From Hydrangea macrophylla (Eukaryota; Streptophyta; Magnoliopsida; Cornales; Hydrangeaceae): a stretch of 64,000 nt of DNA. The stretch spans positions 24,119,501 to 24,183,500 of the forward strand of contig CM066998.1 in the NCBI GenBank assembly GCA_033977485.1, given 5' to 3'. Below, piece after piece: positions 7,631 through 48,040 of this stretch. The notes under the pieces are model-generated. The model searched no databases and was not told where the DNA came from. It worked only from the letters and a program-made list of their open reading frames with translations. Positions within the stretch are counted from its first letter, which is position 1. Every line of letters begins with the position of its first letter. The position numbers and the translations under genes were made by a program.

Positions 7631-7907
7631 TTGATCGGGAACCAGGATCCATTACCAGAATTCTCGTGTTTGATCGAAATTCGCGACGATTGTCCTGAAA
7701 CGACCGATTCGGGTCTTCGGGAGCCAATTTTTCCCAGTTTTTGCCTGCTGGAGGTAGTTCTGACAACTTTTAGTCTGCTTGGGGTAAAACCTCATAAATC
7801 TTGATTGGAATGGGCCATCGGGGCTGATCGGGGCCAAAAACGGGCTGAAAAAGGCCAAAACGGGCCAGAACGGAGCAAAACGGAGCGAAGCGGGGCCCAC
7901 GGGGAGC

Positions 7908-25528: not shown

Positions 25529-25641
25529 TTCGATCAATCGAACTCATCTCGATCGATCGAAGGCGTCCCATCCTCAAGCGCTTCCATAAGTATCAATTGA
25601 TCGAAGGTTCGATCGATCAAACTTTCTCGATCGATCGAGAC
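25529..25641. repeat. Dyad-box array C-int-1, six boxes
   Basis: Six 14-bp boxes related to TTCGATCGATCGAA with dyad centres after 25535, 25554, 25579, 25598, 25614 and 25632. Spacings are 19, 25, 19, 16, 18, identical to the F 5' LTR array at 33895-34005. It ends six bases before a TATTTAAA sequence, so it looks like an upstream promoter element. Confidence 0.92.
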
Positions 25642-25644
25642 TTG

Positions 25645-25652
25645 TATTTAAA
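25645..25652 (+). promoter_or_regulatory. Possible internal TATA box of element C
   Basis: TATTTAAA directly after the dyad array. About 190 bp downstream a donor AAG|GTATGG (25836/25837) and then acceptor TTTCAG at 26188 lead to the ATG at 26198. Array, TATA, leader, intron and ORF suggest a separate promoter for the env-position gene (inference). Confidence 0.5.
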
Positions 25653-25836
25653 CGAGGTATCTTTCATACACCTTCTTAGTTTCATCATCACTCTCATCTC
25701 CTCAAGCGCTCGGAGACAGAGCATAAACGAGGGAGATTTTTGCCCTCCATTCATTAATTCAGTCATTTGAGGAACATCAGATCCCTCTGGTCATCATCAT
25801 CATCACCCTCATACCCTCTCTGCACATATATACAAG

Positions 25837-26188
25837 GTATGGCCCGAGACCCCCCTTGTCTTTTTCATTTTCTTCAAATTCTGATGGGGATGCTCCCCTA
25901 TTGTTCCTAAGATAAATTAGTATTAGTTTTAGTTATGTATTTCATGTTTTCTTTCCATTTCTATTTTTGTTTCGTGTCAATGCTGTTTCGCTGTGTTCGA
26001 TCGATCGAACTGGGCTCGAATGATCGAACCCAGTCCATTCTTAATCGATCAAACTAAGCTTGAGCGATCGAACCCAGTCCATTCTCAATCGATTGTACAT
26101 TCTTCGATCGCTCGAACATAAGAAGTGGCAATTTCTTTTTCCTTCTTCCCTGTTTTGATTTGTTTTTTTTGTTTTTCTTCCATTTCAG
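25837..26188 (+). other. Probable leader intron of the env-position gene
   Basis: Donor ACAAG|GTATGG, acceptor TTCCATTTCAG, 352 bp, ten bases before the ATG. The second dyad array lies inside it. Confidence 0.5.
25996..26116. repeat. Dyad-box array C-int-2, six boxes
   Basis: Centres after 26002, 26021, 26046, 26065, 26090 and 26109; spacings 19, 25, 19, 25, 19. The spacer CCCAGTCCATT occurs twice with a 44-bp period, so two 44-bp units here are recent tandem copies. The spacing equals that of the second arrays of C, D and F. Confidence 0.92.
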
Positions 26189-26197
26189 GTTTTTGCA

Positions 26198-27625
26198 ATG
26201 AACCCTATGACAGGGTATCATAAGTCCAAGCCACTCTACCTCACTATACCCGACCCTGTACTAGCTCATGGTTTCATAAATGAAGAGGAACGAGTATGGT
26301 TTACTCGGCGGTTTTAGACGCGTAAGGTCATGTTGGAGCGGCCACTGGAGTCCGTATGGCTTTCAGCTTCATGGTTCCTGGGACGGTTCAGAGACATGCC
26401 ACTATGGTACAATATGTTGATCTAGATCAAAACAATCAACATCCACTGGGTTCGTGAAGCCTGCTCCTCTATGATCAAGGATCCCGCGGCCCCGTTCACA
26501 TACCGATCCTTCTTCCGCGGGCATGAGATCCTATTCGGCCTTGCCCCAATTTCTGTTGCTCTGGGGTTACCCGAGGTGCCCGATTATTTCTATCCTCGCC
26601 TACCAGGAGCCCCAGAGATGCCTACAGCCACCATTATCCGAGAGCTTATAGGCGGCGCCGTCCAGTTTTGAAATGGCGTATCTCTCATCGAGGATAAGCT
26701 TCTCACTGAGAACTATCATCTCCTCCATCTGCCACTGGTGAAATGTATTTTTATGACATCTTATCACTAGAAGTTCGCAGCATGGTATGCCCGAGCTCTG
26801 TATGCTATTGGGACAGGGCAGCGAATCTGTCTGTCTCGCCTTTATATTGACTTTTTTGTTCAGCCCACGCGGTACATTGCTGCCAAGCGCCATCTGAAGG
26901 GCGCTTGGCCTATACATAGGGTCATTAAGCAGGCTAGGCTAGTTTCATTGGCCACAGATTTGATTCTGCAGGCCTCTAGTCAATTTTGAAAGACGGTGGC
27001 CTGCCGTTCTGATTCTCAGAATAAGAGAAAAGAAAAGGGTAAAGCGAAGGTCAGGGCGAAGAGGAAGAGGGGAGGAGGCACCGATACAGAGGGTGCAGCT
27101 TCTGGGACACCCACAGAGGTTGAGAAGCTAGATTCTGATGACGAGGTTGATACTCGTATTGAGGTTGCGCAGTTCAACCTGAGACAGCGGTCTCAAGCTC
27201 CCGCCCAGGGAGAATCTTCTTCTTCTGTGCCTCTCCTGACTGTTCATGAGTTACTATTAGAGGAGAGAGAAGCCCAGATTAGACTCGAGGGCAAGATGGA
27301 CCGCATGACGACTCTACTTGAGACTATATTGATTCAGATAGGGGTTGACCAGTCTCTACATACATCTCCACCACCCACTACTGGTCCTTCATCCTCAGCT
27401 CTACCTCCACAGGTTGATCCTGCTGCTCCATCTACATTGGCGGCACCGCCTTCTTCTGAGACACCACTTCCACCACCTCCAATCGTGGCTGACCCTTTAT
27501 TATCTACACTAGCTACCATGGTTGCAAGTGACCCGGTGACGGCTACTACTGCTGCTGTGGGTGGAGATGTGGATGCTCCAGAAGTGCTGATCAAGGTCTT
27601 ATCCGATGTCATCGATGATGCTTAG
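26198..27625 (+). pseudogene. Element C env-position ORF (plant transposon protein)
   Basis: One frame of 475 codons from ATG 26198 to a stop at 27625, with three TAG and two TGA codons but no frameshift. The N-terminal two thirds contain HWVREACSSMIKDPAAPFTY, FFRGHEILFGLAPISVALGLPEV and WYARALYAIGTGQRICLSRLY. This resembles the 'putative plant transposon protein' domain found after pol in Athila-like elements (family knowledge, moderate). Then follow a basic segment (KRKEKGKAKVRAKRKRGGG), an acidic patch, and a Pro/Ser/Ala-rich tail. No signal peptide or convincing membrane segment, so an envelope role is not supported; the basic segment could be a nuclear signal. Confidence 0.72.
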
Positions 27626-29792: not shown

Positions 29793-29803
29793 TAGTTGGG
29801 GGT
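29793..29803 (+). promoter_or_regulatory. Element C polypurine tract
   Basis: TAGTTGGGGGT-type purine run abutting the LTR start TGTGCCAAGC at 29804. Confidence 0.6.
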
Positions 29804-30057
29804 TGTGCCAAGCGGGGGTATTTGTAAAATACAACTGCGCCAAAAGAAGAAAATACACCAATTTAGTTTACAATTCCCTTGTATATCTACAATTTAAATT
29901 ACAATGCCAGTTTTTACACAATCTGATTAATCTATGATAAGTGGTATTGTTTAATGGTTATTTGTGCTGATTACTGTTGCTGTGTGAGGAACTGAATGAG
30001 AATGATAAAAGGAAGTATGTGTTTCGAATGAAGAAAATTCAAACATGGAAAGGATGT

Positions 30058-30169
30058 TTCGAGCGATCGAAGAGGTCTTGAGCGATCGAGGTTTCGATCG
30101 ATCGAATTATGTTCAAGCGCTTGAAGATCCCAGAAGTTTAATCGATCGAGGGATGTTCGATCGATCGAA
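30058..30169. repeat. Dyad-box array in the C 3' LTR, first (six boxes)
   Basis: Centres after 30064, 30083, 30099, 30118, 30143 and 30162; spacings 19, 16, 19, 25, 19. This is the mirror order of the F LTR array (19, 25, 19, 16, 18). Box 4 is TTCAAGCGCTTGAA, a perfect palindrome that differs symmetrically from the consensus. It lies 68 bp before TATATATA. Confidence 0.93.
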
Positions 30170-30236
30170 CATGGCTTTTATCATAAATTACACGCACGCA
30201 GCAGAAACGTGGTTTTAACCCTAGCCTTAGGTTATG

Positions 30237-30244
30237 TATATATA
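30237..30244 (+). promoter_or_regulatory. TATA box of the C LTR
   Basis: TATATATA, 68 bp after the first array; the usual place for U3/R. Confidence 0.6.
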
Positions 30245-30665
30245 GTCGTACTGTATACGTCCAGAAGGATGGCCACTTCACTTTCTATCAGTTTTACATA
30301 GGGATAATAGAGTTTGTTCTTGTTTTTGTAGGTGTTATCAAGGATTTCTATTGTTTTGGTTGAATTCCATTAAGTTAATATAAGTTCGTCATTCCAGGTT
30401 ACTTCTTATCATTTTGTTTACACTCTACTTGCTGTTTATTGTAGGTTAATCTGCTAGAATCGTAGGATTACATGTTAGATTCCTGTTAAATCATTAGTTT
30501 TCATAGAATTTATATTTAAATCACAAACAAACAAGACTTTAATGGAATTTTACATTAAACACGAATCTAAGACACTCCAGACCATGTCTGAGTAGTCCCC
30601 AAGTTGGGAGATCACGATGAAATCGTGATCTTAAGCCTCTGCCATGCAGCAGAATAATTCCTGTG

Positions 30666-30786
30666 TTCGATCGATCGAAGTTCGTTCGATCGATCGGACC
30701 AGAGACATTGTCAATTGATCGAAAACATTTCGATCGATCAAGAGATGAAGATATTCGATCGATCGAAATTGCATCGATCGATCGAA
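30666..30786. repeat. Dyad-box array in the C 3' LTR, second (six boxes)
   Basis: Centres after 30672, 30691, 30716, 30735, 30760 and 30779; spacings 19, 25, 19, 25, 19. It lies about 420 bp downstream of the TATA box, so probably within the transcribed part. Confidence 0.93.
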
Positions 30787-31445
30787 CGAACTGATTCTTG
30801 AGAACATTCTATGCAGTATCCCTAGACTTTTTTCTTTAGAGATTTGTTATCAAATTGTCCCCAAATGCTCAGTTTGTCAAAACAGTCTCTGAACTTAAGG
30901 CCTTAAGGCAATTTTCTTCAATATCTTTTGCAAACCACCTTTAATGCTAACAGCATTGTAGGTGCGAGTCTTAACTATTGTTTTAAACTGCTTTCATGTG
31001 TTTCAAATTAACTATGATGATATAGTCCCGATCATGGAAGGACTATGGATTCTTTATTCTAAAAGAAATACGGAATACTGTAGAAAATGTGCTCCATTAA
31101 GCTTTAATGTAAATGCATGGTAGATGGCTAGGTCGCGGTGGATTCGTGTAATCCTAACATTTCCTTTTTACTAAGAAAAACAGGCTTTAAAACATCGCTT
31201 TGGGTAATTAGTTAATCATTAGTTCGATTTATTTTAGTTGCTTTAATTTTAGTAGTTGATTAGTAGAACTTCGTGTTTTGCAACTTTTGATATATTGATT
31301 TTTATTTTCCTTTTAGAGTTTAATCTAAGTATTTAGGTTATCACCTTCCCTATGGGATCGACCTATTCTTAACCAGATTACTACTTGCATGATTACCTAC
31401 ACTTGGGTATAGTACACAAGCGCACATGTATTCTTAGCCGTGTCA

Positions 31446-32885
31446 ATCTGTACCATCTAAAAGAAAGGAACCTTCCACTAATCCAACAAGGCTTTGGCAC
31501 ATGAGGCTTGGCCATATCAATCTAAATAGGATTGGCAGACTAGTTAAAGAAGGGGTCTTAGACGATTTGGTTCTTGAACCAATGGAAGTTTGCGAGTCCT
31601 GTTTAGAGTATAAGATGACCAAAATGCCCTTTCCTGTGAAGGACAATAGGACCAATGCATTGTTGGAATTAGTTCATACTTATGTGTGTGGACCAATAAA
31701 TATTAGAGAAAGGGTTGGGTATAAGTATTTCATAACATTTACTGATGACCACTCCAGGTATGGATATGTGTACTTAATGTCTGACAAGTTTAAAGCCTTT
31801 GCAAAGTTTAAAGAGTTTAGGGATGAATTAGAGAAGCAATTAGGCACACATAATAAGGCCATTTGATCTGATCGAGGCTGCTAGTACCTCTATAATGAGT
31901 TTATTGATCCCCTCATACAGAATGGGATTCTATCAAAGTTGACTGCACCTGGTATACCTCAGCTGAATGGTTTAGTGGAGAGAAGGAACTGAACTCGTTT
32001 AGACATAACTAGGTCGATGATGAATTATTTAGAGTTGCCATTATCCCTTTGGGGTTATGCTTTGGAAACTGCTGCGTACATACTGAATCTAGCACCAAGC
32101 AATTCTGTTCCCAGGACACCACGAGAGATGTGGATTGGGCGCAAGCCTTCTTTGCAACATCTCCGGATATGGGGTTGTCCGGCACATGTGCTGAAAGGAA
32201 AGATGAGCTTGCTGGATTCTAGATCAGAAATATGTTATTTTGTAGGGTATCCAAAGGGTGCTTATGGATGGTATTTTTATGATCCAAGAGAACAGAAAGT
32301 GTCTGTTACTAAAAATGCTATTTTCTTGGAGGATGACTATATCATGAACCATAAATATAAGGGAAGGATAGATCTTAGAGAGATAGAAAGAGAGCCCTCT
32401 GTCCTATGCACAGTTGATAATGATGTATGACAAGAAAATACCACTTCTTCACCCATTTTTACACTAGTACTTCATTGTAGTAGGAGGATTATCAGCCAGC
32501 CTAATAGATATATGTCCTTAGGAGAAGTCTTTGAAGCTGTCTCCATAGAATCTGTATTTGATCCTACCAGATACAAAGAGGCAATGCCTGATGTAGCCTC
32601 AACTCATTAGGTTAAACCTATGATGGCTGAATTAGAATCTATGGACTCTAATCAGGTCTGGAATCTTATAGAATTTCCAGCCAATATTAAACCCACCGGC
32701 TATAAGTGGGTCTACAAGAGAAAAAGTACATTTATGGCATGGCTTGTAGTGAGAGGTTATACTCAGAGGGATGACATTGACTATGAGAAAACCTTCTCAC
32801 CGGTAGCCATGCTCAAGTCCATCAAAATACTCTAATCCATTGCTGCATGTCTAGATTATGAGTTCTGGGAGATGGACGTCAAGAC
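31446..32885 (+). pseudogene. Element E: Ty1/copia pol fragment (integrase to RT start)
   Basis: Begins in the GAG-pre-integrase domain (LWHMRLGHINLNRIGRL) and includes CESCLEYKM of the zinc finger, the integrase core (VHTYVCGP, where the usual Asp is Tyr; SDRG; NGLVERRN), the linker, and the RT start up to MDVKT. At least six stops and missing codons show decay. It is closely related to the same part of F. Both share the TGA after KAI (E near 31863-31865, F 37819-37821). The left side is cut by element C; the right side ends where the F LTR starts. Confidence 0.9.
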
Positions 32886-33894
32886 TGTTGGGTTTGTGCC
32901 CTCAAACCATTACTTTATATAGGAGACATTGACATTTTAATATATGGATATCAGCTTTACATTTAGTTGTGTATGTTTGTTTCATGAGATGATTGTTATC
33001 CTTAAGTATCATAGTAAGTAATGCGCGTATGTATGAGATACATACGAGTGAGATACGAATTGCTATTCTTTGTTACTTAGAACATGTCACAGTGGATGAT
33101 GAGACTAGGATATCTCATCAGGTTTACACTGTAGCATGATTAACTACCATTGGATGGAGTGATCAATCTCAATCACTAGAGTGTAACTCTTAGTTAATAT
33201 GCTAGTGCTTATAGTGCATTGATGGACCTGAGCTTTCCTATTGACACTCAAGGCTGTCAATCAGTCGATAGGAACTCATAACTTGTGTAAGGTACATGTT
33301 CTCAATCTTGAGATGATTATGAACAAAGACTGTGGATATGACTGCTTTGACTTACCAATCAGTGAGGTCTACAGAAGATCAACACCTGGGTATCTTGGGT
33401 ATGTCATATTCATAGGGTTGTGAACATATATTGTCAAGACAGAATCTACCCTCTGTTTCAGAGTAAGCATTCCCTTGAGAATGTCACCAAGTCGATTACT
33501 GAGTACTGCAGTCTTGTTGATAAGAGTTATCAACATGTTTGGTAATCATGAGAGGTGAATGGGACTCAAGGAATACAAGAAGTAATCGTGATTCAGGTTG
33601 ACAGTAACAGTTATCCGACTACCTGAATATGATTACGAATGCTGAAGGTAGAGGGACATTAGTACAACACGCAAGTCTAGTTATCGCTTCGGATATGTTC
33701 TTTTGCGTTGGAGTTCAGTTATCATTTTATAGTGGAGTAAAAGTTAACTGACCAGTTAGATAGTTTGCTGATCAAAGAGTTTGGTCACGGTAATTAACAA
33801 ACTGGTCTGAGCCAACAATAAAGAGCCTAGGAGGTCCCACTCTTAGCTCCGCCAGGATACTTGGAAAGACATATGAGGAAGTTGTCAAGACAAG

Positions 33895-34005
33895 TTTGAT
33901 CGATTGAAGTATGTTCGATCGATTGAAGTTTTGGCAGTCTCGATCGATCTAGAATGGTTCGATCGATCGAACGTTCGATCGATCGATGATCTTCGATCGC
34001 TCGAA
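33895..34005. repeat. Dyad-box array in the F 5' LTR (six boxes)
   Basis: Centres after 33901, 33920, 33945, 33964, 33980 and 33998; spacings 19, 25, 19, 16, 18. The last box, TTCGATCGCTCGAA, equals the reverse complement of the first box of the C LTR array. Confidence 0.93.
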
Positions 34006-34027
34006 GTCTAGGTCGGTTTTGGGAATC

Positions 34028-34035
34028 TATAAATA
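34028..34035 (+). promoter_or_regulatory. TATA box of the F 5' LTR
   Basis: TATAAATA in CTATAAATAGGGC, a strong plant core promoter. In the 3' LTR (near 43376) the same site reads TAAAAATA, so it is lost there. Confidence 0.8.
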
Positions 34036-34385
34036 GGGCAGCTGTGTTCTAGAAAAGGAGTTCGTTGTTTTAGAACGTCAAAAGCTGCATAAACTATTTT
34101 AGAGCACCAAACCTTCTCCTTCCTCTCCATTAGGGTTCCCACCAACCCTAGTCCTTCCTGCGAGCATCCATAGGTGTCATAAGAGTGAAGGCCATCTAGT
34201 GGAAGCTGCTGGAAGTTAAAGAAAATCAGAATTGGGTTCAAGACACTAAGGTACAACTCTTGTCCCCTCTTGTGCGCATCTATGGAATTAACGAGTAGTA
34301 AATCCTGGGCTGCTATTAAGTTTTTATAACTTGACTTTTTTGCTGCGTGTTTAAACTTTTAAATTAAATCATTTTTTCCATCAAT

Positions 34386-34400
34386 TGGTATCAGAGCCAC
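34386..34400 (+). promoter_or_regulatory. Element F primer-binding site
   Basis: TGGTATCAGAGCCAC, the standard complement of the plant initiator-Met tRNA 3' end used by many copia elements. Confidence 0.93.
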
Positions 34401-34553
34401 GCTCGTTTGGATCTATAGATGCGTTTTTGGAACACTTTATTGATTTACATGTTGATTTTAGAACTATTTTCAAAATGGCATTGTCACAGATCTGTTTCTG
34501 CAGTGTTATCGCAGCAGAATACAAATCTGTGATTGCATGGGATGCAAGGCGGG

Positions 34554-34674
34554 TTCGATCGATCGAACATGTTTTGATCGATTGAACATCCTCTGTACTC
34601 GAGCGATCGAATAGTCTTCGATCGATCGAAACCTTCTGGTGGTCGATCGATCGAATGAAGTTAGATCGATCGAG
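34554..34674. repeat. Dyad-box array in the F leader, first (six boxes)
   Basis: Centres after 34560, 34579, 34604, 34623, 34648 and 34667; spacings 19, 25, 19, 25, 19. Same code as the second arrays of C, D and C-int, and also downstream of the TATA box. Confidence 0.93.
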
Positions 34675-34786
34675 ACAAATTCTTTGTCAGACTCTCTATT
34701 TCACAGTTGTAAGGTGTTTTGAAATTAAAAGCTTTATTTTTAAAAGTATTCTGCAAATTTTTGAAATCATTCTATGAAACAGAAAG

Positions 34787-34854
34787 TTCAAGCGATTGAA
34801 CAGAGTTCAATCGATCAAAGGTTCGAGCGATCGAACGGTCTTCGATCGATCGAA
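34787..34854. repeat. Dyad-box array in the F leader, second (four boxes)
   Basis: Centres after 34793, 34812, 34828 and 34847; spacings 19, 16, 19. Two pairs at the short pair spacing. No counterpart seen in C or D. Confidence 0.9.
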
Positions 34855-36095
34855 CTGTGACAGAGAAGGAAGATGCTGTTTTAAGTTCTAATTCAGTATG
34901 TAAAGAGTTTATATACTGTGTGAATCAATAAAGTATTCCAATAGTTACATATATTTGTTATGTATGTGTGGATGCGTGTACGACTAACCCTTTTGCAGCT
35001 AGTTTAGTCACTATCTCCCATGGCACCAAGACTTTTAAATTTTGTATTTAAATTGTTTGAGATTGGTGCATGTTGTAATTTAAGTTTGGTTTGGTTTTAA
35101 GGCATATGTAAAGGGCGCTACGACTTCAATCCTACGAAAAGGAAAGTCGCACCGGTTTCCCTAGCCTTTTATTTTGTTGTTGCTATTTCTATTTCTAGAT
35201 AAATTGTAAGCTTCGAAAGAAGCATAGGACAAATGTAATAGAATTAGAAAATCCATGAAGATGGAGCAAGGAGCCTTTGTCCATGAAGATGGAGCTGGAG
35301 GCGATCAAACCAAAAAGGAGGTTCTATGAAGATAGAGCCATGGGAGATAGAGGCATCGTTTGGATGTCTTTATTTTCAATTTTAGTTTTTGTTTTATGTG
35401 CTTGGTTGTGATTGGCATTTAATTATATTGTTACTACTTGCATGCACGTAAAACAAGTTTTCTAAAATAAGATTCAAAAACTATTTTTAACGCATTAGTA
35501 AACATTGGATGTTTATGGGTAAGGTATAAAAACAAATTTTTCTAAAAAGCAAAATCCTTAATTTACCAAATCTAGTGGGAGAGGGTCTTATTTATTGACA
35601 CGCACGATCTTCCATTAACGGTTCACTGTAAGATGAGTAGTGCATTCTGTGTCGCCTCGTCAGGGGTGATCATTCCATACGGAGGGTGCATTACTTATTG
35701 GTTACTAGATGTGAACTTCTTTTGATAGGATCAATCAGACGTGATAGAGGGTGACCACCACACGGAGGCGCTACTTGAGACGGTTGTGATTGGATCTTAG
35801 TTAATGGTACACACTAGCTAAGCTATGGATAAGGGATCCCACATGGGGCATTGTTCAGAAACTTAGAGATCAAAAGGGATCGGGAGTCATAACTTGTTTT
35901 TGCAAGAGTTGCATAGCGGACAAGTCTTGATTAATCGAAAAATAGAAAATTGACCACCACACGGAGGCTTTATTCTTTTGTTTCGATATTCCGGCGACTT
36001 TGTTTTAAAATAAGAGTTTTAAGGATTCTTTTATTTCAAACTGTCAAATCCTGATATCCATATTTATTTTGTTTGTTTGATTTTCAGTAATCATA

Positions 36096-36845
36096 ATGTC
36101 TGGATCTGCATTTAGTCCACTTGCCACCATACTCACTCAAAACAAGTTAACTGGAAATAACTACACTGAATGGAAACGTAACCTTGACATCGTGTTAACT
36201 GCGGAGGATCACATATATGTCCTCACCACCCCATGCCCCGAAGAACCCGCGGCAAATGCTTCGGCAGCTGCAAGATGCGAGTTCGATAAATGGAAGAAGT
36301 CGAATGGAATGGCTCGTTGCTATATTCTGGCCTCAATGGCTGGTGTGTTGCCACACCAATTCCAATCGAATGATTCTGCCAGTGACATTATCACATCCCT
36401 GAAAAAGATGTTCGGGGAGCATGGCAGGCCTGCCAGACAGGTAGCCATGCAAAAGATAATGAGTGCAAAGATGTCGGAAGGGACTCCAGTCAAGGAACAT
36501 GTTTTAAAAATGATTGGTTATTTAAACAAGGTGGAGACCCTAGGTGCCAACATCGATGCACAGACCCAAGTTGATATGATCCTCAATTCGCTGTCGCCTT
36601 CATTCTCTCAATTTAAACTTAACTATAATATGAATCAAATGAATTTTTTAATGAGCGAATTGATGAGTTCTCTTTTGGCAGTGGAAGGGGTGATCAAACC
36701 TGGGGTCAACATTTTGAACGTTGAGAAAAGCGCTTCCTCTTCCCAATCTACACCGAAAGGAAAGAAAGGGAAGAAGAAGGCTGGTACTGGTGGTCCAAGT
36801 GTTGGACCGGTCCCTAAGATTGCAAAATCTAAGGGCAAAAGGTAA
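36096..36845 (+). pseudogene. Element F gag
   Basis: Starts MSGSAFSPLATILTQNKL at a good ATG. It contains the copia gag UBN2-type core (NYTEWKRNLDIVL, MARCYILASMAGVL, DIITSLKKMFGEHGRPARQ) and a basic tail (PKGKKGKKKAGTG). A frameshift near 36830-36840 separates it from its own zinc knuckle CFQCGEKGHWKRNC, which reads in another frame at 36879-36920. Gag would form the particle. Otherwise it is well preserved over 240 codons. Confidence 0.9.
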
Positions 36846-39720
36846 GGGAAAAGGGAAGGTGGGTGGCCAAGGCAAAGAAAAGTGTTTCCAATGCGGAGAG
36901 AAGGGCCACTGGAAGAGGAACTGTCCAGAATTCTTAGCTACAAGAGTTCAAGGTATGATTGAATCACATGTGATTGAAGTAAGTTTTATTAGGGATACTT
37001 CAAACACTTGGTGCATTGATTCTGGTGTGACTAACCATATCTGTAATTCATTGCTGGGGTTCAGATCAACCAGGAGGTGCAGTGATGGGGAAATCGTACT
37101 TACTCTAGGTTCTAGCGCAACCGTTTCTGTGGTTGCTATAGGAGTCGTAGTTTTAGAATTTCTAGACAATAAAGTTTTGATTTTATCAGATGTACTTTAC
37201 GTCCCTTCAATGAGACGTAATTTAATTTCAGTTTCTAATTTATCGAATAATGGTTATTCTTTTCATTTTGGAACTGAAGTTGTGATTAAAAGAAATAGTT
37301 CTTTTATATGTTCTGGTGTTAAATCAAATGGTTTGTATGTGATTACTCCCAATATTTCTAAAGATTCTTGCTTGGAGCTTAATAACTCAATTGTAACTAT
37401 ACCATCTAAAAGAAAAGAACCTTCCACTAATCCAACAAGGCTTTGGCACATGAGGCTTGGCCATATCAATCTAAATAGGATTGGCAGACTAGTCAAAGAA
37501 GGGATCTTAGGCTTTGGCGATTTGGTTCTCGAACCAATGGAAGTCTGTGAGTCTTGTTTAGAGGGTAAGATGACCAAAAGGCCCTTTCCCGCAAAGGGCA
37601 ATAGGACCAATGCATTGTTGGAATTAGTTCATACTGATGTGTGTGGACCAGTAAATATTAGAGCAAGGGGTGGTTATGAGTATTTCATAACATTTACCGA
37701 TGACCACTCTAGGTATGGATATGTATACCTAATGCAGCACAAGTCTGAAGCCTTTGAAAAGTTCAAAGAGTTTAGGGCTGAAGTGGAGAAGCAATTGGGC
37801 TCACATATCAAAGCCATTTGATCTGATCGAGGTGGCGAGTACCTCTCTAATGAGTTTATTGATCACCTCGTACAGAATGGGATTCTGTCATAGTTGACTG
37901 CACCTGGCACGTCTCAGCAGAATGGTGTAGCTGAGAGAAGGAACCAGACTCTTTTAGACATGACTAGGTCAATGATGAGTTATTTAGAGTTTCCATTATT
38001 CCTTTGGGGTTATGCTTTGGAAACCACTGCATACATACTAAATCTTGTGCCAAGAAAATCTATTCCCAGGACACCACGGGAGATGTGGATTGGGCACAAG
38101 CCTTCTTTGCAACATCTCCGGATATGGGGGTGTCCGGCACATGTGCTGAAAGGAAAGATGAGCAAGTTGGATTCTAGATCAGAAGTATGTTATTTGGTAG
38201 GGTATCCAAAGGGTACTTATGGATGGTATTTTTATGATCCAAGAGAACAGAAAGTGTTTGTTAGTACAAATGCTATTTTCTTAGAGGATGATTATATCAT
38301 GAACCATAAACCTAAGGGAAGGATAAATCTGAGAGAAATAGAAGGAGAGCCCTCAGTCCAACCCGCAGTTGATAACGATGTAAATCAAGAAAATACCACT
38401 TCTTCACCCATTTCCGCACCGGTACCTCGTCGTAGTGGGAGGATTATCAGCCAGCCTGATAGATACATGTTCTTAGGAGAAGTTTTTGAAGCTGTCTCCA
38501 TAGAATCTGAATCTGATCCTGCCACATACGAAGAGGCAATGTCTGATGTTGATTCAGAACATTGGGTTAAAGCTATGAAGGCTGAATTAGAATCTATGGA
38601 TTCTAATCAGGTCTGGGATCTTGTAGAACTTACAGCCAATATTAAACCCATTGGTTGTAAGTGGGTCTACAAGAGGAAAAGAGCATCTGATGGAAAGGTT
38701 GAGACCTTTAAGGCTAGGCTTGTAGCGAAAGGTTATACTCAGAGGGAGGGCATTGACTATGAGGAAACCTTCTCGCCGGTAGCCATGCTCAAGTCCATCA
38801 GAATACTCTTATCCATTGCTGCATGCCTAGATTATGAGATCTGGCAGATGGACGTCAAGACTGCGTTCTTAAATGGCAATCTTGAGGAGGACATCTATAT
38901 GCAACAACCAGAAGGGTTCATAGCTGGTCGAAAAGGTAACTTGGTATGCAAGCTGCAAAAGTCCATTTATGGGCTTAAGCAGGCATCCAGGAGTTGGAAC
39001 ATCCGATTTGACCAAGCGGTCAAGTCGTTTGGTTTCATACAGAATCTGGATGAACCTTGTGTATACAAGAAGTGTGAAGGGAAAGTGATGGCCTTTCTTG
39101 TGCTATACGTTGACGATATTCTACTCATTGGGAATGATGTAGCAGCATTGTCAACGGTCAAGGTTTGGCTAGCTAGTACTTTCGATATGAAGGATCTAGG
39201 AGAGGCGGGCTATATTCTTGGGATAAAGCTCTTTCGGGATCGCAAGCGAAAGATAATGGGATTGTCTCAAGCTGGTTATATCGATAAGGTACTAACTAGG
39301 TTTTCAATGGATAATTCGAAGAAAGGTTTGTTATCTTTCAGGCATGGTTTAGCGTTCTCCAAGGACCAGTGTCCCAAGACATAGGAGGAAAGGAATCGCA
39401 TGGCAGGAATTCCATATGCTTCGGCCGTTGGAAGTCTCATGTATGCGATGTTATGCACTAGACCAGATATCTGTTTTGCCGTTGGCATGGTTAGCAGATA
39501 TCAATCGAATCCAGGTCCAGAGCACTGGACAGTCGTTAAGCACATTCTTAAGTACTTGAGAAGGACTAAAGATTACATGCTTATGTACGGTGGTAATGAG
39601 TTAATTCCAGTAGGATATACTGACTCAGACTTTATGTCAGATAAAGATTCGAGGAAGTCAACATCCGGACATCTCTTTACCTTGGGAGGTGGTGCTGTTA
39701 GTTGGAGGAGCATAGCTAAA
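36846..39720 (+). pseudogene. Element F pol (protease, integrase, RT, part of RNase H)
   Basis: One frame with TGA at 37819-37821, TAG at 37891-37893 and TAG at 39382-39384. Zinc knuckle CFQCGEKGHWKRNC; protease WCIDSGVTNHIC (DSG); pre-integrase LWHMRLGHIN; integrase Asp in VHTDVCGPV, Asp in SDRGGEYLS, Glu in NGVAERRNQTL; RT MDVKTAFLNG and catalytic LYVDDILLIG; RNase H start PDICFAVGMVSRYQ, then GYTDSDFMSDKDSRKSTSG. It is cut at WRSIAK by G at 39721. Domains are mostly whole, so the family was active not long ago. Confidence 0.92.
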
Positions 39721-41644
39721 TGACATTTATGTGATTTAAATGTTATTTGACTTATCTGGTATTTTGATGAATAGTAAATTTACCTGTGTAGAGTAAATTC
39801 TAATAATCTTGATACTATTAGATATCATTTTGAGAACTGTGGTGAGAACGTGAGTGTCACGTTATATAAAAGGTAGGATGTGTAGAGATTCTACAGAATT
39901 TGGTTTTCGGACATAATTTTGGATCCAAACAAGACTTAATCGAAAACTTTGATAATTTATAGTTTTCATTCGTGAAGTTATAAAATGGACGTGTAAGACG
40001 TTTCGAGGGATAATTAGAAGTTTTGAGAACACACGGGGAGGTAAACGTAATTTCCGAGAATTTTGTCTATATATAGAAGTTCCAAGATATTTCTTCATTA
40101 CAACTTTTCTAATTTCAAAATCAAAAGGGAGATTTGGGGGTTTTAGGAGCTTAGAGCTTGCAGACGCAAATCGACAGACTTCTGTCTGTTTGTTTCCAAC
40201 CAAAATTCGTATATGAACTCTCCAAGGTAAGGGCTATGTTTTGATAGTCTTTAGGCCACGTTTGGCTAAGTTTTTATAAATTTCTAAATCTAGCAATTTG
40301 GGGAAAACACATGTAAACTTGTAGGTTTCGCGTAGGATAGGAGATTTGGCATTTTATTGGGCTTCTAGTCGTTCCCTGAAAGTTATACGACGATAGCTCG
40401 AGGTATAAATTTCTAGCCTATGTTATATAGGTGAAATACATGTTTTATATTTCGATGACGAAATTGTGATCCGGGCAAAAATCCATGTGTTAATCTTAGG
40501 CCCGTTAATTATGCACGCACTTGAATGTGAAAAGCACGTCTAATTTTACGCGAGCACGTAGATGTGTTAAATGAGCATGTTTATGTGCCTATGTGGGTTA
40601 AAGGGGGATTTGTGCTAATTCACCGTGAGACGTCCTCTCGAAGGGGGAGGATTAGCAGTGACGACGGTCACTTGCCGAGAAAGGCATTAACGTGACATGT
40701 CAAAGGGGCATAGGTCATGGTTGAGTCTTAAGACTTTGGATCGGTGAATGTGCATTTATTCCCTAGAGACCATTAGTTATGTGTTAGGATGAGGTAAAAG
40801 CATGATTTGTCATATATGCATATGTTAGAAATTGTGCACTCAGCATATAGCTGAGCAATGGAGATTTACTCCATTGCAGGTATGAAGAAAGGAAAGATGG
40901 AATGCGAGGGATGAGGCCGTTGGGATCAATCAGAGGAATTGGTGTATAGAACATTTCTGTAACCGAGTTATAGAAGCTCTGTATTATTTTTGGATGGATG
41001 TAATATTATTTTGAAAACCTTTTTAAGTTGGTTGGAAGCGACTTGGAATCTTGAGTTCGCATTTTGATGTTTAACAAGTTGAATTTCATGTTTTATAAAT
41101 TTTTTAAACACTTATGAGATTTTGATCCAAACGAACCCTCAACTTAATTAGTCAACGTTTTCCAAACTTAGGCAAGTTGTTATACTTGTCCTTATAACAT
41201 TGGTAAGGTTTGATAAGAATTGGAATATGTTTGAAGGGTTGCAAAGGAGTGGGGTTGTTTGATGCCTTAAGCAAATTCTGCAGCTTTGGGTAGGATTCTG
41301 CTAAAGGGTCATTCGACCGGTTGAAGGGGGTCGTTCGACCAGTCAAAATACCCTCTGCCAGAATTTTTAAACCCATTCTTCTAATGTTCGGAACAACTTC
41401 TAACTAGGCATGGGGGTACCTTTGAGGGACCCTTTGACCTATGCAACTGTTACTTTTGAAAACGAAATTCATTAAGGCGTATTTGGACATGTATTTAATA
41501 TAACCTTTGAAAAACTGCTTGGAAGTTGGTTATTTTGGAGCAAAACTTTTATTAAGGTCATTTTGGGAACTTTAATCATCGTTGGTAAGCCTTGATGGCG
41601 TGCCACGTAACCTAGATTCATATGTATGGATCCAGGACGTGACA
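39721..41644. mobile_element. Element G: probable solo LTR (1.92 kb) inside F
   Basis: Starts TGACATTTATGTG and ends GGATCCAGGACGTGACA, so it is bounded by TG and CA. Such an end is common in chromovirus (Tekay-type) LTRs (family knowledge, moderate). TATATAAAA near 39863 could be its TATA box. It has no coding region. The flanks do not show a 5-bp duplication; instead they overlap by about 220 bp of copia RNase H sequence. It contains two dyad boxes (41312-41347). Confidence 0.6.
41312..41347. repeat. Pair of variant dyad boxes in G
   Basis: TTCGACCGGTTGAA (41312-41325) and TTCGACCAGTCAAA (41334-41347), centres 22 bp apart. They fit the TTCRANCGNTYGAA-type pattern of the large arrays except for the spacing. 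Confidence 0.55.
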
Positions 41645-42234
41645 AATATAAATCGAATCTAGGTCCAGAGCACTACACAGCCGTTAAGCACATGCTTAAG
41701 TACTTGAGAAGGACTAAAGATTATATGCTCATGTACAGTAGTAGTGAGTTAATTCCAGTAGGATACACTGACTTGGACTTTATGTCAGATATAAATTTGA
41801 GGAAGTCGACATCCGGACAACTCTTTACCCTGGGAGGTGGTGCTGTTAGTTAGAGGAGCATTAAGCGTAAATGTATTGTAGACTCAACTACAGAAGCTGA
41901 GTATGTGGCTGCTTATGAAGTCGCAAAGGAAGCTGTTTCGCTCAAGAAGTTCCTTATGGAGCTCGAGGTAGTACCAGCATTGCTGTCACCTAACACGTTA
42001 TACTGCAATAACAATTAGGCAGTGGCTCAGTCCCAAGAGCCAAGGAACCACGGAAAGGAAAAGTACTTAGAGCAAAAATATCATCTAATTCGAGATATTG
42101 TTCAATGCGGAGATGTGACTGTCACCAAGATTACCACCGCTGACAATCTCGCGGATCCGTTTACAAAGGCCTTAACACAGAAGGTCTTTGATCGTCATCT
42201 AGATAGTCGAGGTCTTAGATGTAGTCCTGAATGA
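41645..42234 (+). pseudogene. Element F RNase H, right part (starts with a repeat of the left part)
   Basis: Begins NLGPEHYTAVKHMLKYLRRTK, a diverged second copy of residues encoded at 39505-39720, then continues past it: CIVDSTTEAEYVAA (catalytic Glu), LYCNNN (catalytic Asp replaced by Asn), HLIRDIVQCGDV, NLADPFTKAL. Stops are TAG at 41851-41853 and TAG at about 42016. Differences from the left copy show that this end came from another family member. Confidence 0.85.
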
Positions 42235-42255
42235 ATATGAGTGCAAGTTGGAGTT
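42235..42255 (+). promoter_or_regulatory. Element F polypurine tract region
   Basis: AGTGCAAGTTGGAGTT just before the TGTTGGG of the 3' LTR, the usual copia position (AGTGCAAGTGGGAG-type). Confidence 0.6.
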
Positions 42256-43740
42256 TGTTGGGTTTGTGCCCTCAAACCATTACATTATGTATGAGACATT
42301 GACATTTTAATATAAGGATATCAGCTTTGTATTACATTGTGTATGTTTCTTTCATGAGATGCTTACTAATCGTTAAGTACCATAGTAAGTAATTTGTGTA
42401 TGTATGAAATGCATATAAGTGAGATACGAATTGTTATTCATTGATACTTAGAATTTATCACAGTGGATAATGAGATTGGATATCTCATTAGGTGTACATT
42501 GTAGCATGATTAACTACCATTGGATGGAGTGATTAATCTCAATCACTAGAGTATAACTCTTAGTTAATATACTAGTGCTTATAGTGCATTGACGGACCTG
42601 AGCTTTCTTATTGACACTTAAGACTGTCAACAGTCGATAGGAACTCATAACTTTTATAAGGTACGTGTTCTCAATCTTGAGATGATTATGGACACAGACT
42701 ATGGATATGACTGCTTTGACATACCAATCAATGAGGTCTACATAAGATCAAAACCTGGGTATCTTGGGTATGTCATGTTCATAGGGTTGTGAACATATAT
42801 TGTCAAAATAGAATCTACCCTCTGATAAAGAGTAAGCATTCCCTTGAGAATGTCACCAAGTTGATTGCGGAGAACTACAGTCTTGTCGGTAAGTAGTTAT
42901 CAACATGTTTTGTAATCATGAGAGGTGAATGATACTCAAGGAATACAAGAAGTAATCATGATTCAGGTTGACAGTAACAGTTATCCGACTACCTATGTAT
43001 GATTACGAATTCTGATGGTAGAGGGACATTACCACACCATATAAGTCTAGTTATCGCTTCGGATATGTTCTTTTGCGATGTAATTCAGTTATTTTTTTAT
43101 AGTGGAGCAAACTTTAATTGATCAGTTAGGTAGTTTGTTAACCAAAGAGGTTGATCATGAGAATTAATAGCTGGTCTCAGCCAACAATAAAGAGCCTAGG
43201 AAGTCCCACTCTTAGCTCCGCTAGAATGCTTGGAAAGGCACTTGAGGATGCTGTCAAGACTAGTTCGATTGATCAAAGTTATTTTGATCAATTGAAGTGA
43301 AGACAGTTTCGATCGATTGAAAGTGGTTCAATCAATCAAAGTTTTGTCGTTTTCAACATCTCTAAGCTGGGAATCTAAAAATAGGGCAGTTGCATCCAAA
43401 AATCAGAGTTCGTCGTTTTCAACATCTCTAAGCTGCAGACACTATTTAGGGCTTTCCTAACCTTATAAATCCTCTCTATTAGGGTTCCTACCAAGCCTAG
43501 CCTATCCGGGAGTATCTGTAGGAGTCATAAGGGTGAAGACAACCTTGCAGAGGCTGCTGCACCATCAAGAAAGCAGAGAATCAGAATTGGGTTCAAGACC
43601 TGAGGTGTAAACTCTTCCCCCCTCTATGTATACACATCTATGGAGTAAATAAGTAGCAGATCCGGGCATACCAATAAAAGTTTCATACTTTGTTTTCTGC
43701 TGCGAATTGAAACAAAAATTTTAAACCTATTTTTCCTTCA
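42256..43740 (+). repeat. Element F 3' LTR (1485 bp)
   Basis: TGTTGGGTTTGTGCC...TTTTCCTTCA. Many substitutions relative to 32886-34383. The dyad array has only four boxes, the TATA is mutated, and the 23-bp block TCGTTTTCAACATCTCTAAGCTG is duplicated (43347-43369 and 43412-43434). Confidence 0.92.
43264..43340. repeat. Dyad-box array in the F 3' LTR (four boxes, decayed)
   Basis: Centres after 43270, 43289, 43314 and 43333; spacings 19, 25, 19. Boxes carry many C-to-T type changes (for example TTCAATCAATCAAA). The last two boxes of the 5' LTR array are replaced by the 23-bp duplication. Confidence 0.85.
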
Positions 43741-46448
43741 CCCACTACGAAGTAATGACTCGAAAACTGCGTTTAGGAATTGAAGTGGCTATTTTAGCCT
43801 TATTTGATCTCTAAAATCCCTATTTTAGCCTCAAAACTTAAGAATTAAATTTTCTAAACTCTATGTATAGATGCTTTGGATCTCGTACGAGATCACCATG
43901 GAATATCCACAACAATAGACAATGGAATATAGAGGAGAATGGAATCGGAATATATACTTGCATGATTGAATATACTTTGAATTCAAGAGATTTCTAGAGA
44001 GAGAATTATGAATTAAATTCTTCTAAAATAATGGTAGGATAAATGGATTAGAGTTCTGACATCAATTTGCTTCCCTTCTCATCCACCATTGATGAGTGCT
44101 TGAAGAACTTGACAAACACTTGAAGAAGGAGATCCTTCAAATCAACTTTTGAAGCATGAGGTAAACACTATAATTTATCTCTAATCCCTAGATTTATATA
44201 AATCTATAAGACTTGGATCTATTTTAGTTTTGTTTGGTTAGAACACTCACCTTCATCCTCTCTTATTCTTAACACACTCACTTAGCTAGATCCAAGTCTT
44301 CCTTGATTTGTTCATAATTCATGATTAGAGATTGATTTTCACTCTGATTTTGGCTTCAATTTGATTTCATTCATTCTATTTAGTTTAGATCCATGCATAA
44401 ATGATTATACAAATGTATACTTTGAGTTCTATGATGGTTTAGAAGCATGATTTATGAGATAGATGATTCCTATATTCATACTTATCTCTTGATTATTCCT
44501 ATTAACTAGAACATCTATTAGAATTTCATCTCCAAGAGGATATTTGTAAGACCCTTTGATCCATGATCTAAAGTTATCTATAGAACTTGGGGGCTAAATG
44601 GATTGGGAATTATGATAACCAAGTTGATCTATGAGTTTGATCTCTCTGATGAACTTAAACCATCACCTAAGATGTTTTCCTCATTCTTTAAAATGAACTA
44701 GTTAAAATTCAGCAAAACATATTAGTTTTTGCCCATAGAATTTGGTCCGTTAAAACCCATACTTTGATGGACTTCAAAATTACTTGGTAAACTTTGATGA
44801 ATTAGCTTTCATTCGATCCGTTTTGAGAATCATTAGGATCCATATGCTATTTGTAATAATTGTTGAAATCTCGATTGACATATTTTAACATAGTCTCTGT
44901 GTGCTTGAATTCTAGAAAACATATGATAGTTATCGATCCGCTTTTTGGGATGATTCCTACTCATGTATCTATGTGCCGATGTAAAATCCTGAGCATACAA
45001 TCGAGTTAAGGTCATTTTCTAAGCGTTTGAAGTTGTTACAATTATTCTAGAATTTTCTAAGTTTAACTACAATCACGAGAAAACAAAATGGTCACACCTT
45101 GATCGTTGAATAACCATCGATGAATTGAACTTGGATTAGAAATCATCTAAGATAAATGGATGAGAGATCAAAAGCGTAGATCAACTTGATTAACATGATT
45201 CATAGAGTACTATTATGATTTGCATTCATTTTGTTAAATGATACCAAACTTCTAGAATAGCAGTCTGGTTAAAATACTTTTTCAGAGACCTTATGTTGAT
45301 AGAATATCCATGGGTTTATTTTTGTCATAAACCTTAATGCAATAGATTTCTTTTGACACAATTTAGACCTTCATATCAGTTTCGTAGAATTAATTATGAT
45401 TTCTACAAGAACAGTGGATAGTCCTAATCCACTGTTCCCAAAACTCTTATTTCTTGAGCTTCAAAAATACTATTGAGATCCTACTTTTTGGAAAAGTTTC
45501 CTAAGGCATGTATCTAACTTTATGTGAAAGTATCTTAAACCAGCTCATGCTTAAGACCACTTTTGATAGGTTTTAATAGAGGTCCTTGAATTTGGAAATT
45601 TGATTGATGAATATTTCTTGTTGTTTATCATGCATATCATTTGCTTGCTTTTGTTTTTGCAATGCTTCGGTATTCCTTGGTGTCTTAGTGCAGAGAATTG
45701 AATGCCATGGATTCGGACTTCGATTTTGTGGATTGGTCTCTTCTACATGTGGCCTTATGCCCATGTATCATGTAATTCTCTATACCATTTTGTTATTTTT
45801 CATAACCTTGTTTTCAACGACACAATTCCTTTAGGATAGTCACCATTTATATGATCATATGTTAGAGACGTCTTATATAGGATTGTTTCATGATTGTACT
45901 TCACTTTTCCTTTCTTCTTGTTTGTGAAACTGCGCTTGAGTCAACTCAATGTAAGTCTTCTCGTTCCGATTTGCATATCATGGCATGTTTCCTTTATTTG
46001 TACTGGTCCTGCGCGGGGCTAGCCACTATGAGTATACTTCTCTCTTGTATTGTATGTGCATCTAATTTGCTACTTGATTTTATCTCTTGAAACGATTTTC
46101 ATTAGATGTTCTTTTTGCCATGTATATATTATCTAGTATGTTTGAGGAAACAACACCTATTATGAATTAAGAACAACATTGAATCACAGCCTACCATTCA
46201 GTAGGGCGAGGAGGGGGTGCTTTAGTTCTACTAGGGTTCCTTTCCCTCTCATACCAAGCCCCCGAACCTTGATTCTGGTGATGAAGGGCGAGTAACCTTA
46301 TTCAATTTTAGGCAAGTCATATTTAATTTCCTAATTACTGATAAAAATTAGGTGGTGACTCTTTTGTCTCTAGGATGATGATGAGTTCTAACTCTTGAAG
46401 TGTGCGCTTTGGATCCTTCCCGGGACACTGTTAAAACTGAAAGGACTT
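43741..46448 (+). other. Region H: AT-rich, ending in a degenerate Tat-like LTR end
   Basis: No ORF of significance. The last 200 bp (about 46190-46385: GGGTGCTTTAGTTCTACTAG, CCTCTCATACCAAGCCCCCG, GATGAAGGGCGAG, GGTGGTGACTCT) run in the same order as the final part of the A/B LTRs (GGGTGTTTTAGTCGCGAC, CTCTCGTACCAAAACCCCG, TATGAAGGGCCGG, CAAGTGGCAACTCT). A stretch near 45480 (TTTTTGGAAAAGTTTCCTAAGG) also resembles the LTR. It is probably an old LTR of another Tat-type family. Its left limit is not seen; F's 3' LTR adjoins at 43740. Confidence 0.45.
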
Positions 46449-46696
46449 TGTGGCAAGCAGGGGTATTTGTATAATACAACCGCGCTAGAATAAGAAATAT
46501 ACTACTTTAGTTCACAATCACCTATTATATATGCAATTTGTGTTACAATGCCTGTTTATATACAGTGTGACAAATCTATGATGAGTTGGGTTATTTTATC
46601 TGTTATTTCATGCAGGTTGCTGTGTGCAAGGATGACTTACATGAGAAAAGAGTAAAGCTCATTTACAAGCAAGACATTTCAAAATTAAATGTGAAG

Positions 46697-46792
46697 TTCG
46701 AACGATGGAAAAGATCTCAAGCGATCGACGTTTTCTCAAGCGCTCGAATAACTTGAGAGTTCAAGCGATCGAATGGTGTTCGATCGATTGAA
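46697..46792. repeat. Dyad-box array in the D LTR, first (five boxes)
   Basis: Centres after 46703, 46722, 46741, 46766 and 46785; spacings 19, 19, 25, 19. This equals the C LTR array (19, 16, 19, 25, 19) after loss of one box and its 16-bp step. Confidence 0.9.
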
Positions 46793-47285
46793 CATGCTTT
46801 TATCAGGATAATACGCGCACACAGTAGAGACTTGTCATTGTTAACCCTAGCTAAGATTTCTCTATCTATATCAGATGTAAACATGTCCAGAAGGACGCCC
46901 CTTTTTGTTCTTCAGTTTTATAGAGTGAGATAGAGAGCTTTACTTTGTCTTTGTAGGTTCTATGCTTGGATATTGGTTTGGGATTGATTGTTATCACGTT
47001 TAACACAAGTTTGTTGCTTTCAGGTTTTATATTATTGTTATTTATATTCCTTTAGTTGAATCTCATAGTATAATCTGTCACCATCGTAGGTTTGCATGCT
47101 AGCCTTGATAAAATGCATAGTTTATATAGTTTATATGTTTGAAACTCAACCAAACATGTCCTTAATGTTTTCTTACAATAAAAATCAATCTGTTACACCT
47201 CAAATGATGTCTAAGTAGTCCCAGAGTTAGGAGATCACATTGAAAAACTGATCTCTAGTCTCTGCCATGCAAACTGAACCCTGCG

Positions 47286-47406
47286 TTGAATCGATGAAAG
47301 ATAGTTCGATCGATCGAAGGTAAGCAATAGTCAATCGATCGAAAACATCTCGAACGATTTAGAGATGATGATGCTCGATCGATCGAGAGTGCGTCGATCG
47401 ATTGAA
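47286..47406. repeat. Dyad-box array in the D LTR, second (six boxes)
   Basis: Centres after 47292, 47311, 47336, 47355, 47380 and 47399; spacings 19, 25, 19, 25, 19, the same as in C although box and spacer sequences have diverged. Confidence 0.92.
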
Positions 47407-48040
47407 CATTCAGATTCTTGAGAAGATCCTTTGCAGTATTCCTAGGCTTTCTGTCCCCATATGCTCAATTTGTCAAAATAGTTTCTTAACTTAAAGCCTT
47501 AAGGCATTTTTCTTCAATAACTATTACAAACCACTTTGAATGCTTACACCATTCATAGTGCGTGTCTTAATTATTGTTTTAAACTAGTTTCACGTATTTT
47601 ATATCAATTGTGATGATGTAGTCCCGGTCATGAAAGGGCTGCTGATTCTTTATCTTTAGAAAATGCAAAATACTGTAGATAGATGTACTCCATAGAGCAT
47701 TAATGAAACTGCATGGTAGATGGTTCGGTCACTATGGATTCGTGTGATCCCAACACTTCCCTTTTATAAAGTAAAAATCAGTTTAATTTCGCTCTAGTCA
47801 AATAGTTAATTACTAGTTTAATTTAGTTGCTTTACTTTGGTAGTTGTCAATTGTGGAACTTCGTGTTCTACATCTTATTTAAAGTTTGAATTTTTAATTT
47901 CCTTTTTGAGTTTAGTCTAAGCAAGTAACTTTGAACCTTCTCTGTGGGATCGACCTGGTCTTACAAGAATACTACTTCCATGCCCACCTACACTTGGGTG
48001 TTGCACAAGAAGCGCACAAATTATTTTTGTGTCAAGTTTT

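Follow-up and report, generated by a model that had tools for sequence, protein, structure and literature searches.

Paired 14-bp dyads with a common spacing grammar in Ty1/copia and Ty3 retrotransposons of Hydrangea macrophylla, putative sites for a host DNA-binding protein

Activator boxes of the Tnt1 box I type are symmetric or repeated sites in a retrotransposon, each belonging to one family, and we know of no spacing grammar among such long terminal repeat (LTR) boxes that is common to superfamilies. Palindromes in the LTRs of maize Sireviruses are reportedly the subject of a 2016 paper. As far as the available text of PMC2829016 goes, which also mentions box I of the Tnt1 LTR and further repeated activator boxes of LTRs, the nearest described system is formed by the palindromic repeated motifs (RM) of Sirevirus Ty1/copia elements, which recur upstream of the env-like gene. 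The second system considered, likewise from partial text, is that of the VANC target motifs in the VANDAL DNA transposons of Arabidopsis (PMC10398659, PMC5735166). Here we have analysed a stretch of 64,000 nucleotides from Hydrangea macrophylla (the window; GenBank assembly GCA_033977485.1, contig CM066998.1, positions 24,119,501 to 24,183,500 of the forward strand), together with other loci of the genome, and found arrays of a 14-bp dyad (the box) in a classic Ty1/copia element, in Athila-like Ty3 elements and in a second Ty3 lineage, the third lineage overall. A preliminary description of the window, made from its letters alone, knew of no described system of this kind; in view of the related Sirevirus motifs, as presented in the available text of PMC2829016, this has to be revised.

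The exact 14-mer dyad was found 101,717 times in the 2.22-Gb, 19-contig genome. Its reversed control was found 8 times and base composition predicts about 9 copies, which corresponds to an approximately ten thousand-fold enrichment against both references. Exact boxes formed 24,268 pairs with gaps of 0-30 genome-wide (control, 0). With a caller in which C-to-T and G-to-A changes were scored as half mismatches and an array was defined as three or more boxes, the window and 22 loci gave 182 boxes at a score of at least 11 and 84 at a score of at least 13, versus 29 and 0, respectively, in first-order Markov resamples. Arrays were also present in 5 (L014, L016, L020, L022 and L026) of 19 randomly sampled stretches of 10 kb, one per contig, with positions drawn randomly between 0.5 and 75 Mb. 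In this sample 26 of the 51 neighbour distances of up to 120 bp were exactly 19 bp, and the reversed sequences yielded 17 boxes with no neighbours within 120 bp. A rough extrapolation from the excess boxes in the sample gives about 820,000 near-matches genome-wide. A scan of viral contigs for the exact 19-bp box pair returned 0 matches.

The distances between boxes follow a rule. In 56 arrays with 323 boxes, called with a rescue step, distances of 18-20 bp alternated with other distances in 199 of 211 transitions, while shuffling the distances within arrays gave a mean of 125 and a maximum of 145 (2000 shuffles). The number of boxes was even in 49 of the 56 arrays, which mostly held two to four double dyads. 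The alternation and the even counts indicate that the unit is a pair of boxes and not the single box. The 19-bp mode was present in every lineage (copia 50/87, Athila-like 66/121, third lineage 31/59), and the step joining the pairs was mostly 25 or 16 bp, with some of 23-24, in the copia and Athila-like lineages, and 24-25 or 29-30 bp in the third. The rescue step, applied at offsets 16, 18, 19, 24, 25, 29 and 30, favours those distances; the random-sample distances, the Markov comparison and the following tally were obtained without it. In this tally 19 bp accounted for 132 of 252 distances of up to 52 bp, and for 132 of the 143 distances in the 18-20 class, whose boundaries were set by us. 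The array sets (25, later 56) are not independent, although identical arrays were counted once: L001, L003 and L006 are in the set, and L002, L004, L005, L007 and L008 overlap them (L007 was used in one LTR alignment).

The exact pairs listed first, 50 in number, all come from the beginning of a single contig and are in part duplicates within it; their distance was 19 bp in 25, 16 in 7, 18 in 2, 25 in 2, 35 in 1 and 42-44 in 13; the distances of 35 and 42-44 bp are a 19-bp step plus a 16- or 23-25-bp step with a weaker box in between. The peak at 19 bp here and in the random sample bears out the preliminary description in that the spacing is not random. Its rule of pairs 19 bp apart joined at 25 or 16 bp stood as regards the alternation, and has to be widened to joining steps of 23-24 and 29-30 bp.

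In the window the caller returned 10 arrays with 54 boxes. One further decayed box (CTCAAGCGCTTCCA, at 25573), which is below the threshold and was read by eye, splits the 44-bp step of the first array in two, and the ten arrays and 55 boxes of the preliminary description were thus recovered. When TTCGATCGATCGAA was searched for directly, allowing at most 3 mismatches, 52 places were hit, every one inside 25529-47406; beyond that interval the caller gave nothing but isolated weak matches and a weak pair at 56452. The arrays and the elements carrying them are as follows.

25529..25639, + strand: upstream-type array in the linker of an Athila-like element; called as 19-44-16-18, equal to 19-25-19-16-18 with the decayed box.
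25996..26116, + strand: downstream linker array, 19-25-19-25-19, preceding a splice-acceptor-like tract and an ATG at 26198.
29807..31444, + strand: Athila-like LTR, terminating in TGTCA, about 72% alike to 46448-48018.
30058..30169, + strand: upstream array of LTR 29807-31444, 19-16-19-25-19, with TATATAT 68 bp beyond.
30666..30786, + strand: downstream array of LTR 29807-31444, 19-25-19-25-19.
32886..34383, + strand: 5' LTR of the classic Ty1/copia element, primer site TGGTATCAGAGC at 34386.
33895..34005, + strand: upstream array of the copia 5' LTR, 19-25-19-16-18, with TATAAAT 23 bp beyond.
34554..34674, + strand: downstream array in the copia leader, past the primer site, 19-25-19-25-19.
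34787..34854, + strand: second copia leader array, 19-16-19.
36081..39381, + strand: copia gag and pol frames (Retrotran_gag_2, zf-CCHC, Pol_BBD, gag_pre-integrs, SH3_retrovirus, RVT_2).
42256..43740, + strand: 3' LTR of the copia element.
43264..43340, + strand: array in the copia 3' LTR, 19-25-19.
46448..48034, + strand: second Athila-like LTR, primer site TGGCGCCGTTGCC at 48041, Retrotrans_gag frame at 48495.
46697..46792, + strand: upstream array of LTR 46448-48034, 19-19-25-19, with no scanned TATA-like word close behind.
47286..47406, + strand: downstream array of LTR 46448-48034, 19-25-19-25-19 including a weak, rescued box at 47355.

The pattern 19-25-19-25-19, previously ascribed to four arrays, was read outright at 25996, 30666 and 34554; at 47286 it requires the weak box at 47355, and the array reads 19-25-44-19 without the rescue step. 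Likewise, 19-25-19-16-18 was read outright at 33895, and at 25529 only when the decayed box was counted. The array at 46697, with two 19-bp steps in succession, is an exception to the alternation.

A 44-bp tandem repeat born by slippage, neutral and without function, would produce regular steps of its own accord. Local 18-bp tandem growth in L042, the recurrence of one spacer within array 25996 and the frequent gap openings inside arrays are compatible with such an origin. The spacers, however, are mostly non-repeated while their lengths hold, the arrays take the same place beside a TATA-like word in three lineages, and box conservation is position-specific, so that we regard a neutral repeat as very improbable.

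The letters of the box were profiled on 111 boxes from the window and the random sample; L032-L045, chosen at exact-box sites on C1 and hence biased to intact boxes and to one chromosome, were excluded. The half-site is YTCRAKCG. A5 and T10 were invariant in 221 of 222 cases and positions 2 and 13 in 216 of 222, with the commonest changes being T1 to C (A14 to G), G4 to A (C11 to T) and T6 to G (A9 to C). Each box has three CpGs. Decay of the outer CpG struck its inner base 71 times versus 28 for the outer base (p 9e-6, relatedness ignored), an asymmetry that fits a binding site because plain methyl-CpG decay should strike both strands alike. To judge from these letters, the box looks like a binding profile. 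The same CpGs would suit a landing pad of host silencing, that is, CpG-dense palindromes bound by, or feeding, a methylation pathway and not aiding the element. Changes in the box are indeed largely of the methyl-CpG kind, and Sirevirus motifs mark CpG islands in the available text of PMC2829016. Elements should nevertheless lose such sites, yet L014, an Athila-like relative whose LTR stretches show no difference along the 980 bp in view, has kept its arrays, and the pairs are left unexplained. This alternative appears distinctly improbable.

We have then compared the spacers. The five-base spacers comprised 95 distinct sequences among 147 (reverse complements merged). A simple model using the indel rate of the flanks, which ignores turnover of whole units, predicts that such a spacer keeps its length in about 12% of cases at 30% identity and in 34% at 45%. 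In blocks of equal code, spacer identity between lineages was 0.274 (Athila-copia), 0.284 (Athila-third) and 0.301 (copia-third), against 0.251 expected from composition; within lineages it averaged 30.2%, 31.8% and 37.5%, values that are low because most of the compared blocks stand at non-homologous places. In the blocks listed, 48-92% of spacer letters were kept between arrays at homologous places inside one lineage. Identity between lineages slightly exceeded chance, and among many comparisons the best individual blocks from different lineages matched at 14/21. In the window, the copia and Athila LTRs aligned only in the arrays. Spacer identity near chance with lengths kept makes recent copying between lineages unlikely; it also agrees with the earlier proposal that spacing matters more than spacer sequence. 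Simple end-to-end copying through the spacers was not found between lineages, and we have rejected the arrays as one mobile insert or recent inter-lineage copy, given the near-chance identity and the absence of common flanks in the window.

An older event is harder to judge. The array may have been passed between elements by descent, recombination or template switching and then have diverged, its lengths being kept by chance or weak constraint. Box and step sizes are common to the three lineages, and repeats favour template switching. In eight gapped alignments of copy pairs, spacers differed at 29.3% of positions (pooled), versus 13.4% for the flanks; spacer turnover seems to exceed that of the flanks, perhaps through recombination among boxes, with alignment error adding to the figure. 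With such turnover, old exchange would leave no trace, and the spacer test has little power there, as within-lineage identity itself averages no more than 0.302-0.375 and the copia-third value reaches 0.301. Common descent or exchange would account for the origin of the arrays but not for the kept length. Together with the near-chance identity between lineages and the alignment confined to arrays, this leads us to consider it unlikely, although of appreciable weight.

Pfam hits and primer sites agreed with the earlier statement that both Ty1/copia and Ty3 elements carry arrays, and extended it to the second Ty3 lineage; the element labels had to be corrected, the copia element being 32886-43740 and the stretches ending at 31.4 kb and starting at 46.4 kb being Athila-like Ty3. 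Element 32886-43740 has PF14223 and PF07727 between its LTR pair, with copia gag, RVT_2 and the primer site TGGTATCAGAGC. A Sirevirus would be expected to have, 10 bp before its 3' LTR, the polypurine tract (PPT) octamer AGGGGGAG, with several copies in a linker, which often holds an env-like gene. We found no such octamer at the copia 3' LTR, where the tract reads GTTGGAG, and a single copy, at 40642, within 34386-42256. There is no linker between pol and the 3' LTR either: the last frame, which presumably encodes RNase H although its pieces have no Pfam hit, stops at 42231 and leaves about 25 bp up to the LTR. Sirevirus membership was rejected on these two grounds, for which reason the element is called classic. 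Within it, a 231-bp pol stretch occurs twice (39495-39722 and 41643-41873, 89% identity), the two copies enclosing about 1.9 kb of other sequence; L022, a related copy, appears to have a single version. A copia pol fragment at 31445-32886 is directly flanked by the Athila-like LTR and by the copia LTR, as in a nested insertion or recombination scar.

The Athila-like Ty3 lineage is marked by PF03732 at 48495-48794 and by the primer site TGGCGCCGTTGCC at 48041 and in L014; LTR 29807-31444 is tied to it by 72% identity. The name Athila and the transfer RNA assignment are our assumption, and no Athila model matched. Arrays 25529 and 25996 lie between integrase-like frames and a broken coding region from 26198. 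We take the frames before 25529 to be Ty3 integrase, their pieces having no Pfam hit, and the pieces of the region from 26198 gave no Pfam match. The linker pair is placed as if it drove an env-like gene. The third lineage was recognized in L016 and L030, on the minus strand, from PF03732 (Retrotrans_gag) and PF19259 (Ty3_capsid), with the Met primer site TGGTATCAGAGC at L030:3741 (minus strand); its LTR stretches, separated by 5.5 kb, have 90% identity. From the LTR start TGTAATACCC we tentatively presume a resemblance to Tekay/Del. L026, L001, L020 and L031 were assigned to this lineage by DNA similarity, L031 weakly, as it was lost at a stricter cut-off; in L020 there is also an RVT_2 frame of copia type, about 8 kb away from the array, and in L026 there are Ty3 frames on the opposite strand.

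Most arrays are paired, with one just upstream of a TATA-like box and the other 356-751 bp downstream, as measured from the upstream end to the downstream start. The two array types of the preliminary description, which had missed this, are two positions around the putative promoter. The upstream arrays of the window are 25529, 30058, 33895 and 46697. In 8 of 10 array pairs, hand-picked from the first 25 arrays and including the linker pair, a TATA-like word with a putative promoter role follows the upstream array at 6-68 bp (in the linker, TATTTAA 6 bp past array 25529-25639). The downstream array is inside the LTR in the Athila-like and third lineages, and in the leader past the primer site in copia. 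By eye, a word near AGGTCGGT was seen beside or inside arrays in copia (window, about 34007-34020) and the third lineage (L016, L026 and L001, in long spacers), and was not seen among the Athila-like arrays compared. Its reverse complement holds ACCGAC, which we take to be the core of the dehydration-responsive element (DRE).

A hairpin signal acting in RNA or single-stranded DNA, for packaging, dimerisation or small-RNA production, would offer another use for neighbouring palindromes. Pairing between two of them would give a 14-bp stem closed by the 5-base spacer as its loop, which would account for the 19-bp pair. The copia leader array does fold far better than shuffled sequences (z -6.1), and its first two boxes form such a hairpin in the lowest-energy fold. 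However, palindromes alone suffice for good folding, and the same fold pairs boxes 4 and 5 across an 11-base spacer, and 3 with 6, instead of the 19-bp partners. Neighbours at 19 bp did not compensate each other's changes: 50 of 262 non-consensus letters were complementary, where shuffling gave a mean of 48.7 (sd 7.5). The upstream arrays, moreover, precede the TATA-like box. We consider the hairpin improbable.

We lean towards the arrays being cis-regulatory protein-binding sites of the LTR promoters, which the enrichment of the box, its letters, the spacing, the layout and the arrays kept in L014 make fairly probable. A host DNA-binding protein would bind each 14-bp dyad as a dimer, and two dimers would touch across the 5-bp spacer, making a 33-bp double dyad the true unit. 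Pairs tethered along the array could recruit the transcription machinery, or hold off silencing, at the LTR start site, and the promoter would be controlled from both sides of it. Each lineage would have acquired or kept the grammar through use of the same factor.

Several observations weigh against regulatory binding sites of this kind. The distances of 16, 19, 25 and 30 bp are not in one helical phase. Two of the 10 pairs lack a TATA-like word (the Athila-like LTR at 46.7 kb and L022), and the opposite strand has such words in 9 of 10 gaps, all these counts being without a shuffled control. The downstream array probably lies in transcribed sequence, which makes a role in RNA possible. Changes in one half of a box were not mirrored in the other (56/279 vs 48.9 expected). 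In the eight alignments boxes were little better kept than flanks (11.0% vs 13.4% different; better in 6 of 8), and gap openings amounted to 49 per 1002 positions in arrays versus 274 per 9519 in flanks, the former coming from gained or lost units and from aligner error. Such weak box conservation, though each box has its CpGs, speaks against strong selection acting on all boxes and favours a gain and loss of units.

A second palindrome, TTCGACCGGTCGAA, formed 1,565 exact pairs with gaps of 0-30 (control, 0), and its spacing was 22 bp in 47 of the first 50 exact pairs, several of which lie about 6.4-6.9 kb apart, as LTR pairs do. It has the outer part of the half-site in common with the main box and a changed core. 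A weak pair is present in the window at 41312-41347, and two pairs (four boxes of the CCGG kind) at L026:8533-8641. Its spacers are conserved in sequence too (GGGGGTCG in many), so the code may stem from recent descent of one family. The changed core and spacing would fit related factors reading related codes. In a copia-related array at L042:459-606, a run of 18-bp steps with CCGG spacers looks as if boxes had been locally amplified.

A bolder proposal, which we put forward tentatively and with some doubt, is that one oligomeric DNA-binding protein of the host imposed a common grammar on LTR-retrotransposon promoters from two superfamilies and at least three lineages: 19-bp double dyads, linked by steps of 16 or 25 bp, in arrays that flank the start site. 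Its sites would number about 100,000 exact and perhaps 800,000 near copies, and TTCGACCGGTCGAA at 22 bp would be a sister code for a related factor. The arrays were assigned to no known plant factor. If this proposal is true, a single host factor is either contested by the Ty1/copia and Ty3 elements of one plant or needed by both, and some 100,000 exact sites would make these elements a large sink for it. It would also mean that sequence alone suffices to read a strict protein-DNA grammar, and would give a handle on the old question of which host proteins switch plant retrotransposons on.

Two other repeat structures were noted. In G000:C1:1-1.3 Mb, box positions recur at an offset of about 503.6 kb and are mirrored near 1.05-1.27 Mb, which points either to a large duplication, direct and inverted, or to an error of assembly. 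The window has a tandem repeat of 99-bp period at 7056-7649, whose stretches have 88-96% identity to the reference copy, apart from the first with 64%.

A literature search, with most subscription journals outside its coverage, returned no description of the present box or spacing. Alongside a retrotransposon, TCGATCGATCGA appeared only as an artificial example, and CGATCGATCG was not found alongside an LTR retrotransposon. TCGATCGATCGAA appeared only in the context of oligonucleotide chromatography, in a source available in part, and TCGATCGA was absent from the matches listed. The Sirevirus RM, as portrayed in the available text of PMC2829016, resemble our arrays in being short CpG-rich palindromes, in many copies per element, located in the LTR shortly upstream of the TATA box; one of them, Tnd-1 (ACAATCGATTGT), has the ATCGAT core in common with our box and likewise lacks the CGG-CCG core. 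There, however, RM are reported as Sirevirus-specific and absent from classic elements, whereas here a non-Sirevirus copia element and two Ty3 lineages carry the arrays. Most RM have the CGG-CCG core and vary between elements, whereas here there is one box, YTCRAKCG-CGMTYGAR, without it. The VANC targets, in the corresponding text of PMC10398659, are similar as tandem short motifs in noncoding transposon parts with fast turnover, and a protein that recognizes their sequence binds them, which makes them a functional parallel among DNA transposons. In VANDALs the binding proteins are encoded by the elements themselves, whereas here three LTR lineages have one box. The pairwise spacing grammar and the downstream array are additions to the Sirevirus account, in whose available text (PMC2829016) no spacing rule appears. 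Relative to that account, the arrays have the layout in common and differ in lying outside Sireviruses, in having one box across superfamilies, in the spacing rule and in the downstream array.

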